Shown here: one piece after another, positions 26,488-54,919 of the stretch | How the letters are laid out: each line of letters opens with the position of its first letter | How positions within the stretch are numbered: the stretch's first letter is position 1 | Origin: a virus | Direction: 5' to 3' (one strand) | IMG/VR virus record: IMGVR_UViG_3300034198_008895 | Location: 1 to 64,000 of that record | Length of the DNA stretch: 64,000 nt | The notes under the pieces: model-generated | The model's database searches: none | The model's input: the letters and a program-made list of their open reading frames with translations, nothing else | Told to the model about the DNA's origin: nothing | Made by a program: the position numbers and the translations under genes

Positions 26488-26823
26488 TTAAATATCGTAA
26501 TAATCCCAAGCATGTGGTTCATGCTTATTCATAAAGTCTTGAAAACCTTCTTCAGTGTCCACATACACTTCTTCTTCAAAGTTTCCCCACACTCGTCCGT
26601 AGACAGGATGGATTGCTTCAAAGTCATTAACCCAATAGTAATAATCCTCAACAATCCTACCAGATATGATCCAACCATCAGGATGAACTCTGACGAATGT
26701 ACCAGTCTCACGGTTATGATTCTCAAGAACTTCTTCTGGATTTAAAGTATAAGCAGCGGCACTAAAGAATTTTTTCTGCTCTTCTTCAACAAAAAAATCT
26801 ACACCAAGTTTTTTCGTAATCAT
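26488..26823 (-). CDS. Unknown 111-aa acidic protein
   Basis: A Trp/Tyr/Glu-rich protein (HPDGWIISGRIVEDYYYWVNDFEAIHPVYGRVWG, shown here in part as a marker) with an acidic C-terminus. Its upstream region (26824-26920) lacks a good CATATATA core; AATATAGATT-like sequence near 26908 is the nearest. No family recognised. Confidence 0.83.
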   Translation of the reverse strand: MITKKLGVDFFVEEEQKKFFSAAAYTLNPEEVLENHNRETGTFVRVHPDGWIISGRIVEDYYYWVNDFEAIHPVYGRVWGNFEEEVYVDTEEGFQDFMNKHEPHAWDYYDI

Positions 26824-26926
26824 GATATCACCTTAGACAGTTAAACAGCTGGTCTAAAGCTAAGATGATCACAATTACCACAATTACTATTTACTTAGTG
26901 TCAATTAATATAGATTTAAATAAAAA

Positions 26927-26952
26927 AACAAGGTGACCAAAGTCACCTTGTT
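26927..26952 (-). terminator. Terminator
   Basis: An 11-bp stem (AACAAGGTGAC, loop CAAA, GTCACCTTGTT) followed by TTTTTTA on the minus strand, after the 49-aa membrane gene. Confidence 0.9.
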
Positions 26953-26956
26953 CCTG

Positions 26957-27106
26957 TTATGCTTCTTTCTTTTTACTGAACTTCGCAGTGAGAGAATCCT
27001 TCATAGCTTTAGCTTTCCAACCAAGCCAGAAGAATAGGACACCAGTCATTCCCATTGCAAGAATAACGTCACCCCGTCCTGCGAATATACCAACCGCTGT
27101 GTTCAT
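26957..27106 (-). CDS. 49-aa single-helix membrane protein
   Basis: Begins MNTAVGIFAGRGDVILAMGM with one transmembrane helix (VILAMGMTGVLFFWLGW, about 14-30) and a lysine-rich tail. The start overlaps the lipoprotein stop (ATGA). Its small size, single helix and coupling to a lipoprotein gene resemble spanin or superinfection-control pairs, but this is inference. Confidence 0.8.
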   Translation of the reverse strand: MNTAVGIFAGRGDVILAMGMTGVLFFWLGWKAKAMKDSLTAKFSKKKEA

Positions 27107-27555
27107 TTACCGGTGAACGACTTGAATGGCAGCTTAATGCCGAGGTTACACTGCTTCAGCTCTTTGTAGAAAGCAGTATCGATAAAGTCCTTCTCAAGGA
27201 AGCAACCCATCTGAGCAGAGTGGGTCGAGCAGTAAGCCTTGTACTTTTCGACTTCCTTGGTCTTCTCGTTCTTTTCACCCATGAACGAAACCCAGATCCA
27301 ACCGGAACCTTGCAAGCACTCGGATGTCATCATCAAATCAGGATGAGTCACAATCTTCATACCAGTAAGGCGTGGATTAGCATCACGATACTCACGTGCC
27401 AGTGTATCGGCATTGCTGATCGTGGTGGCACGATAAGAGTCCAGGATATCAGCATTGCGGATAGCCAGTTCATCCTTCGTTGGTGCGCGTTCACCACAAC
27501 CAACCATGATGAATGCGGCCAGAGCAATACAAACCATACCAAACATCTTCTTCAT
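27103..27555 (-). CDS. Lipoprotein of unknown function
   Basis: 150 aa from the ATG at 27555 (AAGGAGTTTCGT upstream). Signal peptide MKKMFGMVCIALAAFIMVGC with lipobox MVGC, so Cys20 should be lipidated. The mature protein holds five further Cys. It lies directly downstream of the tmRNA terminator and overlaps a one-helix membrane protein gene. Candidate roles: outer spanin, lysis or exclusion of other phages. No family recognised. Confidence 0.85.
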   Translation of the reverse strand: MKKMFGMVCIALAAFIMVGCGERAPTKDELAIRNADILDSYRATTISNADTLAREYRDANPRLTGMKIVTHPDLMMTSECLQGSGWIWVSFMGEKNEKTKEVEKYKAYCSTHSAQMGCFLEKDFIDTAFYKELKQCNLGIKLPFKSFTGK

Positions 27556-27604
27556 ACGAAACTCCTTTTTATTGAAAGTTGCTACTGGAAAAAACAAAAT
27601 AAAA

Positions 27605-27629
27605 AGACATGAACTATTTGTTCATGTCT
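27605..27629 (-). terminator. Terminator after the tmRNA coding piece
   Basis: A 10-bp stem (AGACATGAAC, loop TATTT, GTTCATGTCT) followed by TTTTTATTTTG on the minus strand. It separates the RNA island from the lipoprotein gene, which has no promoter motif of its own. Confidence 0.85.
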
Positions 27630-27639
27630 GTAAGGAAAG

Positions 27640-27893
27640 AGAAGGTCCACCTGCCTATTTGGGTAATAAGGACTCCGTCATGATCGGGAGAGCAGGTGGC
27701 TTGGAAGACCGAAGTCAACCAATGACCCCATCGCTAGTCAACTTAGGCTAACCGCTGTTAGGCGGCGAGCTTCAGCTGAGGTGCGAACTGTGCATCATTT
27801 GCGGCAGTTATTGAGTTTGCTAGATTTACGTCATTCGCCTGACGTGTCGTTCCTTATCCACTAGTTATGCGCTGTCGAAACCTGTACATCCCC
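27640..27893 (-). ncRNA. ssrA: tmRNA coding piece (permuted two-piece tmRNA)
   Basis: The RNA 5' end GGGGATG (27893-27887) pairs over 7 bp with CATCTCC of the acceptor piece upstream. It is followed by TACAGGTTTCGACA, the conserved tmRNA D-loop region, then CAGCGCAT (27874-27867), which can form the P2 helix with GTGTGTTG of the acceptor piece. The tag frame runs from the GCA at 27802 to the TAA at 27758 and encodes ANDAQFAPQLKLAA. Pseudoknot-like stems follow, including CCACCTGC/GCAGGTGG. It should rescue stalled ribosomes and tag nascent proteins for proteolysis. The 3' end is placed approximately, before the terminator. Confidence 0.9.
27758..27802 (-). other. tmRNA tag-peptide reading frame
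   Basis: Fourteen codons and TAA: Ala-Asn-Asp-Ala-Gln-Phe-Ala-Pro-Gln-Leu-Lys-Leu-Ala-Ala. The AND start and LAA end are typical of bacterial tmRNA tags. The resume codon is taken as the GCA at 27802-27800; the codon before it is GCC. Confidence 0.85.
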
Positions 27894-28010
27894 ATCAGAG
27901 ACAGTCTGAACCAATCGGTCACAATTAACACGTTGACTGCGGTTTTATCCGGAGGCGCTTAACTGTAAATGCCGTTCGCCTTAAACAAGCAAACGCAACC
28001 AGACTGTCTT
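27894..28010 (-). ncRNA. Excised spacer between tmRNA pieces
   Basis: The 117-nt segment between the CCA end of the acceptor piece and the G1 of the coding piece. Its ends carry AGACAGTCTG and CAGACTGTCT, a perfect 10-bp stem that brings the two processing sites together. This is expected for a circularly permuted tmRNA precursor. Confidence 0.75.
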
Positions 28011-28090
28011 TGGTGGAGATGGGGGGAATCGAACCCCCGTCCAACACACTTTCATTTCTAAAGTCTCAGAGAGTTACCTCTCCATACGAC
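28011..28090 (-). ncRNA. ssrA: tmRNA acceptor piece
   Basis: The RNA 3' end reads GGACGGGGGTTCGATTCC, then CCCCATCTCCACCA: a T-arm with a GGGGG/CCCCC stem, the acceptor strand CATCTCC, discriminator A and an encoded CCA (28011-28013). This is the tRNA-Ala-like 3' half of tmRNA. GTGTGTTG (28049-28042) can pair with the coding piece to make P2. A GAGAG/CTCTC hairpin lies at 28069-28082. The 5' end is estimated from usual acceptor-piece length. Confidence 0.88.
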
Positions 28091-28094
28091 AATA

Positions 28095-28625
28095 TTCCTT
28101 CGCCATTGATGAGCATGGGCCGAAGATTGAAGCTAGTTAGTCCTCGGGCATTCTATCCCGAATTAGATGCTCTCACATCCCACTTGTTTTAAAGTTCCTG
28201 GTGAGAGACCAGATCCTCTTTGTCAAGCGTTTACGTCAATGTCCGTAGAACTAAAAAGCAAACTTGCCTGGTTACACATCCAGGTTGCTGGGATTAAGCA
28301 ATGCGAACGGATCTACATTTCAATAGTCCGGTTGTTAATCGAATTACACTTATAGATGAGCGACATCTATAAGACACTTGTGAAAGGTCCCACTTTCATC
28401 AAGAACTGAGCATGTAAGAGCTAAAGATATGGCAGTGGAGAGATCATGTTTAGACGTGACCATGACCCCTAAACCCCACTATTCTGTCTCGATGTAGCAG
28501 ACCGCGATATCCACATCATCGTCGAGCCATATCCTTAGCAAACTAGTCGGGATTCGTCCTAGCCTTAGACGATATCTCTCCGAGATAGTGAGGAAGTTGA
28601 ACCTCACATAAATCCCTTACTCGTA
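28095..28625 (-). ncRNA. Large structured RNA of unknown type, upstream of the tmRNA
   Basis: About 0.5 kb with no gene on either strand. It contains many local hairpins: 28144-28160 (CGGG/CCCG), 28198-28212 (CTGGT/ACCAG), 28267-28284 (CCTGG/CCAGG), 28349-28373 (10 bp, CTTATAGATG/CATCTATAAG), 28381-28398 (TGAAAG/CTTTCA), 28574-28586 and 28588-28607 (GTGAGG/CCTCAC). No terminator or promoter motif separates it from the upstream protein gene or the tmRNA, so it should be cut from a common transcript. Size, phage location and tRNA/tmRNA neighbourhood recall the GOLLD and ROOL ornate phage RNAs, but no identity was established. The strand is inferred from context. Confidence 0.6.
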
Positions 28626-28629
28626 GTGC

Positions 28630-28959
28630 CTAAGCACAATTCTTTTGTTCAGCTCGCCGCGCATTCAAGCGATCAGCCGTAGTGGTTGACTTGCGAGAAT
28701 TAAGACGGTTAGCCAAAGCGATCGGGTGAATACGATAAACACCCTTAGCGATGCGGCGAGTATATTTACGCCATGTCGGAGAATGTTCGCTGGTATCCAT
28801 CTCAGCGTTACTGAGAAGAACACCGGTATAAGACTTCTTGATCTTCTCAAAAAAGTCCATAACTTCCTGACGAGTTACGATCAAACCTTTACCGATTTGA
28901 CCATCAAGCATAGCATCCAGAAGCGAGTCATGAATGCTGCTAGTGACGTATGTTGCCAT
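28630..28959 (-). CDS. Unknown 109-aa basic protein in the RNA island
   Basis: ATG at 28959, after AAGGAGACTGTG. The N-terminus is helical (SSIHDSLLDAMLDGQIGKG). The C-terminal 45 residues are strongly basic (WRKYTRRIAKGVYRIHP, ANRLNSRKS, RLNARRAEQK). It is the only protein gene between tRNA-Leu and the large RNA/tmRNA, so it could bind one of these RNAs; this is inference. No family recognised, and it is not SmpB-like. Confidence 0.82.
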   Translation of the reverse strand: MATYVTSSIHDSLLDAMLDGQIGKGLIVTRQEVMDFFEKIKKSYTGVLLSNAEMDTSEHSPTWRKYTRRIAKGVYRIHPIALANRLNSRKSTTTADRLNARRAEQKNCA

Positions 28960-29017: not shown

Positions 29018-29103
29018 TGGTGCCGGGAACGGGAATCGAACCCGTACACTCAATGAGCGAGAGATTTTAAGTCTCTTGTGTCTACCAATTTCACCACCCC
29101 GGC
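29018..29103 (-). tRNA. tRNA-Leu(UAA)
   Basis: Acceptor GCCGGGG/TCCCGGC, anticodon loop CTTAAAA with UAA, long variable arm, T-arm ACGGG TTCGATT CCCGT, encoded CCA. It decodes UUA/UUG. First element of the transcript that includes the large RNA and tmRNA. Confidence 0.96.
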
Positions 29104-29152: not shown

Positions 29153-29575
29153 TCAGCTGCAGATCTCTTCGTCAGCATCTGAAGCTAGTGATTTATAACC
29201 TTTGTAAGTAGGATGAATTTTATCCTTACTTAAATCAGACTTTCTAGGACTAATAGTAGTGTCTCTATATATACCAGCAACTTGCCTTACAAATTCATAT
29301 TGTTCTGGTTTAATATCTTTATTGGGTAATATCCAAGTAACACATTTACTTCTAATTCCCATCCTTAACTTCAGAAGAGAGTTAAAAGTTGGTGTGACCT
29401 TTGTATCATTTGTTCCCAAACTAATAATAGTATGTTTATTATATATGTTAACTGGTCCATATCTATTAACATAATTTTCCGAATTGATTCCAGATTGAAC
29501 GTATGCTTGACATTCTTTTCTGACTTGTGAAATTCCTACACCAATGGAATCTCCAAGTATCAGGCATTCTAACAC
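29153..29575 (-). CDS. Small SGNH/GDSL-family hydrolase
   Basis: 140 aa; GTG start with AAGGAGTTAACA upstream. It carries the family's conserved blocks: GDSIG with nucleophile Ser10, Gly30, GTND with Asn56, and DKIH with Asp118 and His121. The full SGNH set is therefore in place for ester or acetyl-group hydrolysis. It is shorter than usual family members (about 200 aa). It sits between tRNA-Leu and tRNA-Arg. Possible roles are deacetylating a surface polysaccharide or a small-molecule ester; there is no signal peptide, so it probably acts in the cytoplasm or in the virion. Confidence 0.82.
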   Translation of the reverse strand: MLECLILGDSIGVGISQVRKECQAYVQSGINSENYVNRYGPVNIYNKHTIISLGTNDTKVTPTFNSLLKLRMGIRSKCVTWILPNKDIKPEQYEFVRQVAGIYRDTTISPRKSDLSKDKIHPTYKGYKSLASDADEEICS

Positions 29576-29596: not shown

Positions 29597-29672
29597 TGGC
29601 CTCCCGTAGACGGTTCGAACGTCTGACCTGAATCTTAGAAGGATTCTGCTCTTCCAACTGAGCTAACGGGAG
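29597..29672 (-). tRNA. tRNA-Arg(UCU)
   Basis: Acceptor CTCCCGT/ACGGGAG, anticodon stem GAATC/GATTC with loop CTTCTAA (UCU), T-arm AGACG TTCGAAC CGTCT, encoded CCA. It decodes AGA/AGG, codons rare in GC-rich hosts. Its 5' end overlaps the stop codon of the HNH gene by 10 nt. Confidence 0.95.
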
Positions 29673-30127
29673 TTATTTTGAAACGGACTATTCTTACTAA
29701 TTGTATTATGAAATCTAGCAGAACAACTTCTAGAACAAAAAAGATGTTGAACACCCTTTCTAATTCTATTATTTATTTCACCTTGAGTTATATAAAATAA
29801 ATTTCTACAATTATCACATGGAACTATTGTCCATTGTACAACCATAGCGGAATACCACCATTGTTGTTTTAATAAATTCTGCTCTTGCGATAGCAATTGT
29901 AGATTATTAATATCATCATTAGTTTTATCATCGTCCTTATGATCTACTTCAAAGTCATCAGGAACTTCATATCCAAGTTTAATACCCATAAGGTATCTAG
30001 CATAAGAAATAGTTGTTCTATCTGAATTTGAATTAAACAGATCAACTATTCTTCTATTTTCATTTGATATTCTTAAGTAACCTTTTTTCCATTTACTTCT
30101 AAAAGGTTCTTGTAATTCTATTAACAT
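29663..30127 (-). CDS. HNH homing-type endonuclease abutting tRNA-Arg
   Basis: 154 aa; ATG after TTTTGGAGCATTAGC. The HNH core is VDHKDDDKTNDDINNLQLLS (61-80), with an N-terminal DNA-binding region. A C-terminal zinc knuckle is formed by CDNC (104-107) and CSRSC (131-135). Residues 61-77 are identical to those of the HNH gene at 54.4 kb. The stop codon lies inside the tRNA-Arg 5' end, and a tRNA 5'-half remnant lies upstream. This looks like an endonuclease gene that has moved into a tRNA locus. Confidence 0.88.
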   Translation of the reverse strand: MLIELQEPFRSKWKKGYLRISNENRRIVDLFNSNSDRTTISYARYLMGIKLGYEVPDDFEVDHKDDDKTNDDINNLQLLSQEQNLLKQQWWYSAMVVQWTIVPCDNCRNLFYITQGEINNRIRKGVQHLFCSRSCSARFHNTISKNSPFQNNSR

Positions 30128-30463: not shown

Positions 30464-30973
30464 TTACTTATTGTGAGAAGTTTTATAGATCATATATTCT
30501 AGTTCACCTCGGCCTATACGTAAATTATTTTTTGCTAATATTGGTACGTCTTTTCCTTCACCACCAATTTCTTCAAATGTGAAAGATTTAAATTCTTTTA
30601 TTATTTCTATCTTTCCTTTTGTCAATGCCACTAAATCAATATAACCGATTCTAACCATTTCAATAGGTCTGATAAACCAATGCTCGTGATTTTTTCTAAA
30701 ATCAGACACAGCAGGTGGTAAGTAAGGTCTATCAGAAGTCATATAAATAGCCGGAGGATTCCAACCATTTTCTTCATTTCTGCATTCGATAATAATATCC
30801 ATACTGTAAAGTTGTTTATTGCTAGAAATAGATCTTAAGCAATAAAGTAATTCTGGTGCAACACAAACTCTAGGTATATTACCTTCCTTATTTATGATAG
30901 CTGATTCAGGAAGTTTTGGTCTGAATTTAAAAACAGGACCGTGATCCTTTTTTGAAACATGGTAAAACAACAT
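30464..30973 (-). CDS. Unknown 169-aa protein
   Basis: Begins MLFYHVSKKDHGPVFKFRPK and has FWF-like aromatic segments (HWFIRPIEMVRIGYIDLVAL), with a pattern loosely like ADP-ribosyl-transferase-like phage proteins (YHVSK at the N-terminus), though the catalytic residues were not identified. AGGAGAAATAA precedes the start. Function unknown. Confidence 0.8.
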   Translation of the reverse strand: MLFYHVSKKDHGPVFKFRPKLPESAIINKEGNIPRVCVAPELLYCLRSISSNKQLYSMDIIIECRNEENGWNPPAIYMTSDRPYLPPAVSDFRKNHEHWFIRPIEMVRIGYIDLVALTKGKIEIIKEFKSFTFEEIGGEGKDVPILAKNNLRIGRGELEYMIYKTSHNK

Positions 30974-30992
30974 TTATTTCTCCTAGTAAAAA

Positions 30993-31022
30993 AAGAAGAG
31001 AGGGATTTCTCCCTCTCTTCTT
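30993..31022 (-). terminator. Terminator
   Basis: A 13-bp stem (AAGAAGAGAGGGA, loop TTTC, TCCCTCTCTTCTT) followed by TTTTTTAC on the minus strand. Confidence 0.9.
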
Positions 31023-31023
31023 C

Positions 31024-31209
31024 CTAGTCGTTTAAAGACTCTTCAATGAACTTCCTGAAGAAAACCTTCTCACTACCGCGTTTCTTTTTCCGCATGAACT
31101 TAACGCGCTTAGGTCCTTTAGGAGCAGGAGTGCAACAAGCACACTTCCAACCACCAGGTCCCAGCTCTTCGCTCTGAATCATACGAATAAAACGTTTTTC
31201 ACTAATCAT
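31024..31209 (-). CDS. Unknown 61-aa basic protein
   Basis: Contains CACC (20-23) and a very basic middle (APKGPKRVKFMRKKKRGSEK). AGGAGCAATATC precedes the ATG. It could bind nucleic acid; no family recognised. Confidence 0.78.
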   Translation of the reverse strand: MISEKRFIRMIQSEELGPGGWKCACCTPAPKGPKRVKFMRKKKRGSEKVFFRKFIEESLND

Positions 31210-31278
31210 GATATTGCTCCTGTTAAGATCAATGGTTCATGATAGCCTCCATTTGGTTATTAAACTACAGGAAAAAGT

Positions 31279-31491
31279 TTACATATTAATCAGATTCCGA
31301 AAGGCGTCGCAAGCCTCCTTCGCTTCCTTCAAACTGCACTCATTATTCTGCTTACGATAAGCACGAATACCAAGCACATGAAGATCACGGCTGACCAGAT
31401 GCCTCCAGTCATATTCCAAAATCTCCTTATCAAGAAGATCAAGAGTTTTGTTAACGTGTTTGCGAACTTCCAGAATTTCAGTCAAAGTCAT
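31279..31491 (-). CDS. Unknown 70-aa helical protein
   Basis: All-helical small protein (TLTEILEVRKHVNKTLDLL, LKEAKEACDAFRNLINM). The ribosome-binding site is weak (TAGGAACAATC). A separate gene in a run of small ones, with no terminator either side. No family recognised. Confidence 0.78.
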   Translation of the reverse strand: MTLTEILEVRKHVNKTLDLLDKEILEYDWRHLVSRDLHVLGIRAYRKQNNECSLKEAKEACDAFRNLINM

Positions 31492-31550
31492 GATTGTTCC
31501 TAAGAACTATGGCAACATTACCATAGATTATTCATGACAATCTCCTTATG

Positions 31551-31787
31551 TTAGTTAATGGTTCTAGGCGTTCCTATTTTGTCAAGAACACTACAAGCAG
31601 CCTCAACACATTCTGTCGGAGACTTATTATTTTTATGTGCATCAAGAAGAGCATGTTTAGCCTCTTCTATACGAGCACACATTTCTCTAATAAAGGCAGC
31701 CTTTTCAGCCTGAGACATGCCTTGTAATTTTTGTTTAACCTTTTCTAACTCTGCGTCAAGATCAGGTATAGGTGGAAATTCAATCAT
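31551..31787 (-). CDS. Unknown 78-aa helical protein
   Basis: Coiled-coil-like (DLDAELEKVKQKLQGMSQAE, ARIEEAKHALLDAHKNNKS). It starts 2 nt after the stop of the 104-aa gene and is probably coupled to it. No family recognised. Confidence 0.8.
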   Translation of the reverse strand: MIEFPPIPDLDAELEKVKQKLQGMSQAEKAAFIREMCARIEEAKHALLDAHKNNKSPTECVEAACSVLDKIGTPRTIN

Positions 31788-31789
31788 GC

Positions 31790-32104
31790 TTAATAAAGGT
31801 TTTCAGAGTACAGAGTACCACCATTAGCGGTATCCCCACCACAGCGATAAACAATTTGCCCAGCGGCCTCTGCAACTTTCCAAGCCTCTGTGCGAGACAT
31901 GAAGACACCCCACTGATCGATAAACCCTTGATCATCGTAATCATGAAAGTCAAGATCAAGACACAGACGAACATGCATTCGCATGACATCATCCATATGA
32001 CGAGGTCCTAAAACAATACGACCTGTTTTACTTGAACGACATGCTGCGCAGACAACACGACGTTGTTTTGTTAATTCATCTTTAGTACATCCATCTGCAA
32101 ACAT
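31790..32104 (-). CDS. Conserved phage protein of unknown function, 104 aa
   Basis: The ATG at 32104 (AGAGGTATAAA upstream) is preferred over a longer frame that would lie inside the preceding gene. The pattern VVCAACRSSKTGRIVLGPRH, DDQGFIDQWGVFMSRTEAW, AGQIVYRCGGD and LYSENLY is one recalled from many phage proteins, in which a hydrophobic core is followed by a QGF...F.R.EA module and an L.SE.LY end. The function of that family is not known. Confidence 0.85.
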   Translation of the reverse strand: MFADGCTKDELTKQRRVVCAACRSSKTGRIVLGPRHMDDVMRMHVRLCLDLDFHDYDDQGFIDQWGVFMSRTEAWKVAEAAGQIVYRCGGDTANGGTLYSENLY

Positions 32105-53763: not shown

Positions 53764-54170
53764 TAGTGAATAGGGTTGATATAAGCTTCATCAGTGTTAG
53801 GATTAACCGTAACATGAATAGACTTAGCATTGGACATAAGTTCTTTCACATGGTCGGTATCTTCGATTGCTTCATAAGCAAACTTAAGGATATCACCATT
53901 AAGCAGAGCTTCTTCAATCTTCTCTTTGTCGATAGAGAAGTGAATACTCAACAAAATATAAAGCGTCATATGGAATATCTTATCACTACGACGATACAAC
54001 GTATGGTACATATTCTTATGTTGATCGAAGAATGCATTCATAGGTTCTGAATTTTCAGGTGAACCATACATATCACGATTAGTTTTGTTACGGATATAGT
54101 CATTCAGTAAATAGATCTTGGCACTGTCGTCCACATATTCAGCATCAATATGAGCTGTAGGGTGAGTCAT
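53763..54170 (-). CDS. Unknown 135-aa protein
   Basis: ATG at 54170 after AAGGAGAATAAA; the frame extends upstream into the tRNA region and that part is not coding. Helical centre (HKNMYHTLYRRSDKIFHMTL, KEKIEEALLNGDILKFAYEA) and a beta end (KSIHVTVNPNTDEAYINP). First gene after the tRNA-Tyr unit's terminator. No family recognised. Confidence 0.83.
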   Translation of the reverse strand: MTHPTAHIDAEYVDDSAKIYLLNDYIRNKTNRDMYGSPENSEPMNAFFDQHKNMYHTLYRRSDKIFHMTLYILLSIHFSIDKEKIEEALLNGDILKFAYEAIEDTDHVKELMSNAKSIHVTVNPNTDEAYINPIH

Positions 54171-54200
54171 TTTATTCTCCTTGGTGGTGAAAGATGAAAA

Positions 54201-54232
54201 AGTATAGACAGAGGTTAACCTCTGTCTATACT
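54201..54232 (-). terminator. Terminator of the tRNA-Tyr/Ser unit
   Basis: A perfect 32-base palindrome (16-bp half AGTATAGACAGAGGTT) in a hairpin, 11 nt after the tRNA-Tyr CCA, followed by TTTTCATC on the minus strand. Confidence 0.8.
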
Positions 54233-54242
54233 CTTTTAGTTG

Positions 54243-54327
54243 TGGTGGACCGGGCATGATTCGAACATGCGAAGCACGAGGCGTCAGATTTACAGTCTGA
54301 TGGGTTTGACCGCTCCCCAACCAGTCC
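54243..54327 (-). tRNA. tRNA-Tyr(GUA)
   Basis: Acceptor GGACTGG/CCGGTCC, anticodon loop CTGTAAA (GUA), long variable arm, T-arm GCATG TTCGAAT CATGC, encoded CCA. Confidence 0.95.
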
Positions 54328-54344
54328 AGAGTACTACAAATGTT

Positions 54345-54432
54345 TGGCGGAGGCGGTGAGATTCAAACTCACGAAGGGTTTCCCCTTGCTGGTTTTCAAG
54401 ACCAGTGCAATCGATCGCTCTGCCACACCTCC
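54345..54432 (-). tRNA. tRNA-Ser(UGA)
   Basis: Acceptor GGAGGTG/CGCCTCC, anticodon loop CTTGAAA (UGA), long variable arm with AAGGG/CCCTT, T-arm GTGAG TTTGAAT CTCAC, encoded CCA. It decodes UCA. Its 5' end lies 1 nt after the HNH stop. Confidence 0.95.
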
Positions 54433-54433
54433 T

Positions 54434-54919
54434 TTAATCTTTATATTTAGTTCCATGCTGTCCATATTGATTTGCAGCATTGTATTTGGATCTACAAGAT
54501 CTGCTACAGCATAAATCATCTGTAACTTTTATTCTGTCTTTATACTCACTGTCTGAAAGATAAAACAATTCATTACAGTAAGAACAAGGTAATATATGAT
54601 AGTTAAGCAATTCTTCAAACTGCTTCAACTCATATTTCTTTTTGTTTTCCTCAGATGTAAGAACCTGAAGATTATTAATATCATCGTTGGTTTTATCATC
54701 GTCCTTATGATCTACTTCTTCATCAGGAGTTAATAAACGATCAAGTTTATCTTCCATCATTACTCTTGATAGAGCTTTAGACGGAGTGTTACCTTTTTCA
54801 AAATAGATGACGCATCTTTTCCTACCATCCTTACTTTCATAAGGACCTAAGATGTTTTTGCATCCATATAGCTTCTTCAGCTTTTCTTTGTCAAATGGTA
54901 TATCTGTTTCTTTCGACAT
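54434..54919 (-). CDS. HNH homing-type endonuclease abutting tRNA-Ser
   Basis: 161 aa. Core VDHKDDDKTNDDINNLQ (69-85) is identical to residues 61-77 of the HNH protein at 29.7 kb. The C-terminus has the same CSYC (112-115) and CCSRSC (137-142) zinc knuckle. The stop abuts the intact tRNA-Ser; a tRNA-Ser 5'-half remnant lies upstream. Repeated insertion of one homing-type gene at tRNA loci is inferred. The start has no strong ribosome-binding site. Confidence 0.88.
   Translation of the reverse strand: MSKETDIPFDKEKLKKLYGCKNILGPYESKDGRKRCVIYFEKGNTPSKALSRVMMEDKLDRLLTPDEEVDHKDDDKTNDDINNLQVLTSEENKKKYELKQFEELLNYHILPCSYCNELFYLSDSEYKDRIKVTDDLCCSRSCRSKYNAANQYGQHGTKYKD

Follow-up and report, generated by a model that had tools for sequence, protein, structure and literature searches.

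Phage-encoded tmRNAs have been surveyed on a large scale, with 402 tmRNA-bearing phages carrying 133 unique forms, 53 of which are two-piece; 50 of these 53 come from marine or aquatic samples (PMC9004378). The methylophage Melnitz and the marine phages in that work encode a permuted ssrA with a tag frame, and the two-piece tmRNA of Melnitz, which is of the alphaproteobacterial type, was reported with a glutamine riboswitch (PMC9004378). Phage-encoded tmRNAs are likewise described for mycobacteriophages of the Bxz1 type and for Bacillus phage G (PMC4131195). In an article of the chimallin literature (PMC11877940), the word tmRNA appears only among the references, as part of the name of a program, and a jumbo-phage review (PMC13282480) leaves it unmentioned. 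The locus described here lies in a 64,000-nucleotide stretch of viral DNA (positions 1 to 64,000 of IMG/VR record IMGVR_UViG_3300034198_008895; hereafter, the window), and it shares with the above examples that the tmRNA is encoded by a phage. The Bxz1-type and phage G tmRNAs are one-piece. The window gene is permuted, as in Melnitz, but it is of the betaproteobacterial type and is borne by a phiKZ-type phage, and no riboswitch was found by Rfam in the window.

On the minus strand, positions 28145-27697 hold a complete circularly permuted tmRNA gene. Searching the whole window with Rfam places RF04321 (tmRNA_permuted) at 28068-27758 with 102 bits (E 9.5e-19) and RF01850 (beta_tmRNA) at 28145-27697 with 96.2 bits (E 6.2e-28), both on the minus strand and over the full model. 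Both scores exceed the gathering thresholds, which are 47 bits for RF04321 and 84 bits for RF01850. ARAGORN, which is independent of Rfam, reports a tmRNA* at 28103-27667 with the tag AANDAQFAPQLKLAA and a stop. The two covariance models and ARAGORN thus confirm the permuted two-piece gene proposed in the initial annotation. That annotation had placed the gene at 27640-28090, where it is indeed located, although its 5′ end reaches further, to about 28103-28145. The piece boundaries were given correctly: the acceptor half, ending in ...CATCTCCACCA at 28011, lies upstream of the coding half, which starts with GGGGATG at 27893, and 117 nt lie in between. The features of the gene and its immediate surroundings are as follows.

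29597..29672, minus strand: tRNA-Arg(TCT), upstream of the tmRNA on the same strand (ARAGORN)
29018..29103, minus strand: tRNA-Leu(TAA), upstream of the tmRNA on the same strand (Rfam, ARAGORN)
28012..28145, minus strand: acceptor piece upstream of the CCA end, with variable 5′ region and T arm (RF01850 match, ARAGORN start 28103; mature 5′ end approximate)
about 28049-28042, minus strand: 3′ strand of P2, in the acceptor piece (8 of 8 paired)
28011..28017, minus strand: 3′ end of the acceptor piece, TCCACCA with encoded CCA
27894..28010, minus strand: 117-nt intervening sequence with paired ends AGACAGTCTG/CAGACTGTCT and TGAT abutting the coding piece
27697..27893, minus strand: coding piece with the GGGGATG acceptor strand, D-region TACAGGTTTCGACA, 5′ strand of P2 CAGCGCAT, tag frame and 3′ part
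27758..27805, minus strand: tag reading frame, AANDAQFAPQLKLAA and stop (ARAGORN)
27605..27629, minus strand: terminator-like hairpin of 10 bp, then a T-rich tract, 3′ of the tmRNA gene

The acceptor stem in the window pairs at 7 of 7 positions, the T stem at 5 of 5, and P2, formed between the pieces by GTGTGTTG and CAGCGCAT, at 8 of 8. Both the 7-bp acceptor stem with a single G-U pair, which is G3-U70, and a P2 joining the pieces had been predicted earlier, and rightly so. In a non-redundant set of 27 viral and bacterial permuted genes, G3-U70 occurs in every one, and the P2 and T-stem pairs covary. Several pair types are seen in P2 columns 3-7, and column 4 is C-G, G-U, A-U or U-G. The tag codons in the window (GCC GCA AAT GAT GCA CAG TTC GCA CCT CAG CTG AAG CTC GCC GCC TAA) read as A-ANDAQFA-PQLK-LAA, that is, a betaproteobacterial-type AND..FA start and an LAA end with additional residues, and the frame is present together with a resume region and a stop codon.

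The window is phage DNA of the phiKZ type. It encodes a phiKZ-type major head protein (phrog_3231, 5e-156) along with ribonucleotide reductase, thymidylate synthase, virion proteins and phiKZ-type structural families. The nearest relatives of the major head protein are those of Burkholderia phage FLC9 (40% identity) and Xanthomonas phage LucasX (35%). A 189-kb IMG/VR record, G004, matches the window at 100% identity wherever the two were compared, 12,320 bases through and around the tmRNA among them, and it extends the phage by ∼68 kb before window position 1. The two records may come from one sample and are therefore not independent assemblies. A 614-residue ORF on G004 is chimallin, as evidenced by direct comparison with PDB PhuN (3.9e-15) and Goslar chimallin (1.1e-13). 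A profile search gives 7.1e-47; the underlying alignment (A1) includes one wrong-strand row (L039), the profile still retrieves chimallin structures, and the direct comparison is independent of the alignment. The PhuZ tubulin adjoins chimallin on the same record (PDB PhuZ, 2.7e-15). With both genes on an identical overlapping record, the phage has the gene content that marks the nucleus-forming family (Chimalliviridae), and it probably builds such a nucleus. What is notable, and less expected, about this finding is the carrier family: the kind of tmRNA is itself known, and the context of this phage family is new.

None of 22 reference phiKZ-type phage records (7 + 15) contains a permuted tmRNA. 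Searching IMG/VR by major head or virion protein returned only the identical record and one relative. The latter (L043/L048, IMGVR_UViG_3300028549_001530) is a second, distinct chimallin-encoding phage with a 62% identical virion protein, and its contig appears to stop before the tmRNA position. SmpB was not found in either record of the window phage (G000 and G004); both are fragments, and SmpB could therefore lie in unseen DNA.

The best Rfam subtype of the window tmRNA is betaproteobacterial, and the likeness to the betaproteobacterial permuted tmRNA (RF01850, within RF04321) includes the gene order, the acceptor and T stems, P2, the D-region, the resume region and a tag of the AND...-AA type. 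The gene is nonetheless divergent, as its RF04321 score of 102 bits lies below those of bacterial beta genes, which reach 160.8. It further differs from the betaproteobacterial genes in a tag of 15 residues, as compared to 10 in 13 sampled bacterial genes, in its much longer intervening sequence (117 nt versus 24-42 nt in the sampled bacteria), and in being carried by a phage in whose records SmpB was not found. No other copy found exceeds 74% identity to the mature sequence. In a tree of the mature parts, which was built before the larger viral set and holds only earlier viral copies, the window groups with bacterial genes L108 and L109 (support 90/85), apart from the viral copies then included. 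Identity to L108 is 74%, and among the matches listed from the larger, later set some viral copies also reach 74%. L108 and L109 are of the order in which the collection places Azoarcus, Burkholderiales in GTDB. The sequence therefore appears nearest to betaproteobacterial (Burkholderiales) genes, which is a modest claim for a short RNA. Together with the relation to phage FLC9, this grouping suggests a betaproteobacterial host or donor.

Phage-borne permuted tmRNAs are fairly common. In the first two pattern scans of IMG/VR, 17 of 24 records had a permuted tmRNA above the cut-off, and a third scan gave at least 114 new loci, at least 111 of them called permuted, on contigs some of which may be bacterial pieces misfiled as viral. 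Together with the 53 two-piece forms in PMC9004378, these counts contradict the initial view that a phage tmRNA of the split type is unusual. Among the matches listed from the third scan, the tag ends in LAA in 87 of 111 permuted viral copies. The remaining viral contigs with a tmRNA from these first two scans, many of them short, yielded no chimallin. In two viral contigs, of 242 and 172 kb (L015:4301-4661 and L020:5202-5562), the permuted tmRNA has a tag of 21 residues, DTTNNWIATGSYDFSNEDVLA, that neither starts with AND nor ends in LAA as is usual.

A permuted tmRNA is also present in Pseudomonas phage SM1 (L126:1140-1560; KU245542.1, about 54041-54461), with a score of 118.6 bits and the tag ANDTSFDVRLAA. 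Six records, of SM1 and relatives including PaMx31, FBPa45, UF_RH6 and PA_L9, hold the gene, which was left unannotated in the annotated records examined. Pseudomonas aeruginosa, the host of this group, has a one-piece tmRNA of its own. SM1 is a 93-kb Samunavirus, far smaller than the window phage, of another genus and with a different tag, but the tmRNA is of the same type, with a similarly long intervening sequence (about 112 nt) and the same flanks. In the window, a 10-bp stem formed by AGACAGTCTG and CAGACTGTCT closes the intervening sequence, which ends in TGAT directly before GGGG. SM1 and the window have the flanks, AAAGACA...TGTCTCTGAT, in common, a G-C pair within the stem is swapped for C-G, and the predicted processing stem is thus kept between the two with a compensatory change. 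Among the viral matches listed, the median length of the intervening sequence is 72 nt. TGAT before the coding piece is common to the window, SM1, many viral copies and the nearest bacterial genes, L108 and L109; the third-scan loci were selected by TGAT and are uninformative on its frequency.

The G+C content of the tmRNA stretch is about 45-50%, versus 37% overall. Upstream of the tmRNA, the gene-free stretch 28140-28630 (about 480 bases, 45% G+C) has a fold z of -4.9, and of -4.2 in a repeat; its plus strand gives -4.1. We considered this stretch as a new large structured RNA and rejected it, as its fold stability is unexceptional for this phage: other 490-base stretches have a mean z of -2.4 (sd 1.3), with several at -4.4 and one at -6.0. 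Rfam, searched to E 10, returns only one implausible eukaryotic snoRNA far under the cut-off, and no DNA relatives were found among the phage and plasmid collections. Strong folds are also seen at 26801-27000 (z -5.6), mostly between the ORFs 26488-26823 and 27103-27597, and in 30973-31790, where ∼800 bases lack an ORF of at least 80 aa and the minus strand folds stably (z -5.6 for 30973-31463). Between the two tRNA genes, a 140-aa ORF (29153-29575) has GDSI, GTND and late H-P motifs like those of SGNH hydrolases and is without a match in Pfam and PHROG. Finally, a 53-bp repeat, 94% identical, occurs at 29898-29950 and 54666-54718, inside two ORFs that each adjoin tRNA genes; the ORF holding the 29898-29950 copy is an HNH endonuclease.

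Taken together, the locus is very probably a genuine permuted ssrA of a chimallin- and PhuZ-encoding phiKZ-type phage, one that would mature to two RNAs and support ordinary ribosome rescue. We infer its transcription, processing, charging, tagging, timing and export from the sequence. The precursor would be transcribed from the minus strand, and the 117-nt intervening segment would fold on its terminal stem, thereby positioning both halves of the tRNA-like domain. Cleavage by host RNase P would fall before the GGGG at 27893 and the encoded CCA at 28011 would be freed by host enzymes of tRNA 3′ processing, with the 7-bp acceptor stem and P2 keeping the two RNAs together. Charging by the host alanyl-tRNA synthetase through G3-U70 would follow. 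With host SmpB, the RNA would rescue stalled ribosomes and add AANDAQFAPQLKLAA, whose LAA end would direct degradation by host ClpXP-type proteases. With SmpB not found in the two phage records, the RNA would have to rely on the host for SmpB, alanyl-tRNA synthetase and RNase P. The most likely role would be to maintain ribosome rescue at a time of falling host transcription and abundant truncated mRNAs. If a phage nucleus forms, export of the precursor would have to precede its processing.

The same absence of SmpB from the phage records would also fit a decoy or competitor, in which the tRNA-like domain diverts SmpB from the host tmRNA and thereby blocks or redirects host rescue; such a role has been suggested for the domain-only RNA of mycobacteriophage DS6A (PMC4131195, PMC11915505). 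Unlike DS6A, however, the window gene has a full tag frame, a stop codon, a resume region and an LAA end, and tagging is apparently kept among phages, since most permuted viral copies listed end in LAA. The intact stems and the LAA tag favor ordinary trans-translation, and a DS6A-like role is improbable. The initial annotation had proposed that the phage may replace or modify host ribosome rescue; the canonical AND...LAA tag likewise points to a gene that would supply ordinary trans-translation rather than alter host rescue.

Alternatively, a non-functional host fragment, acquired passively with a tRNA island, would account for a stretch of raised G+C beside two tRNA genes and for the absence of the gene from the 22 reference relatives. 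A dead copy would be expected to lose pairs, however, and here the stems, tag frame and processing stem are all intact despite at least 26% divergence from every relative found, which makes a passive fragment quite unlikely. Among bacteria, the gene is most closely related to ordinary host ssrA genes, as would be seen if a bacterial tmRNA had been joined to the phage contig through an assembly error. Yet G004 agrees with the window through and around the gene, the flanking genes are without bacterial families, and the nearest bacterial copies are only 74% identical; contamination is accordingly scarcely credible.

An extension of that reading, which we regard as possible but short of probable, is that a nucleus-forming phage carries its own two-piece rescue RNA, which would be transcribed in the phage nucleus, exported and matured by cytoplasmic host RNase P, making rescue independent of host ssrA once the host chromosome is silenced or degraded. 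The finding extends phage-encoded ribosome rescue to a phage with nucleus genes, where transcription and translation would be apart, and it raises the question of how a structured RNA would be exported from the phage nucleus and matured. Many phages, including some of P. aeruginosa, where the host tmRNA is one-piece, carry permuted tmRNAs that have LAA tags and long processing stems, and this recurrence argues for trans-translation as a function that phages retain for its usefulness.
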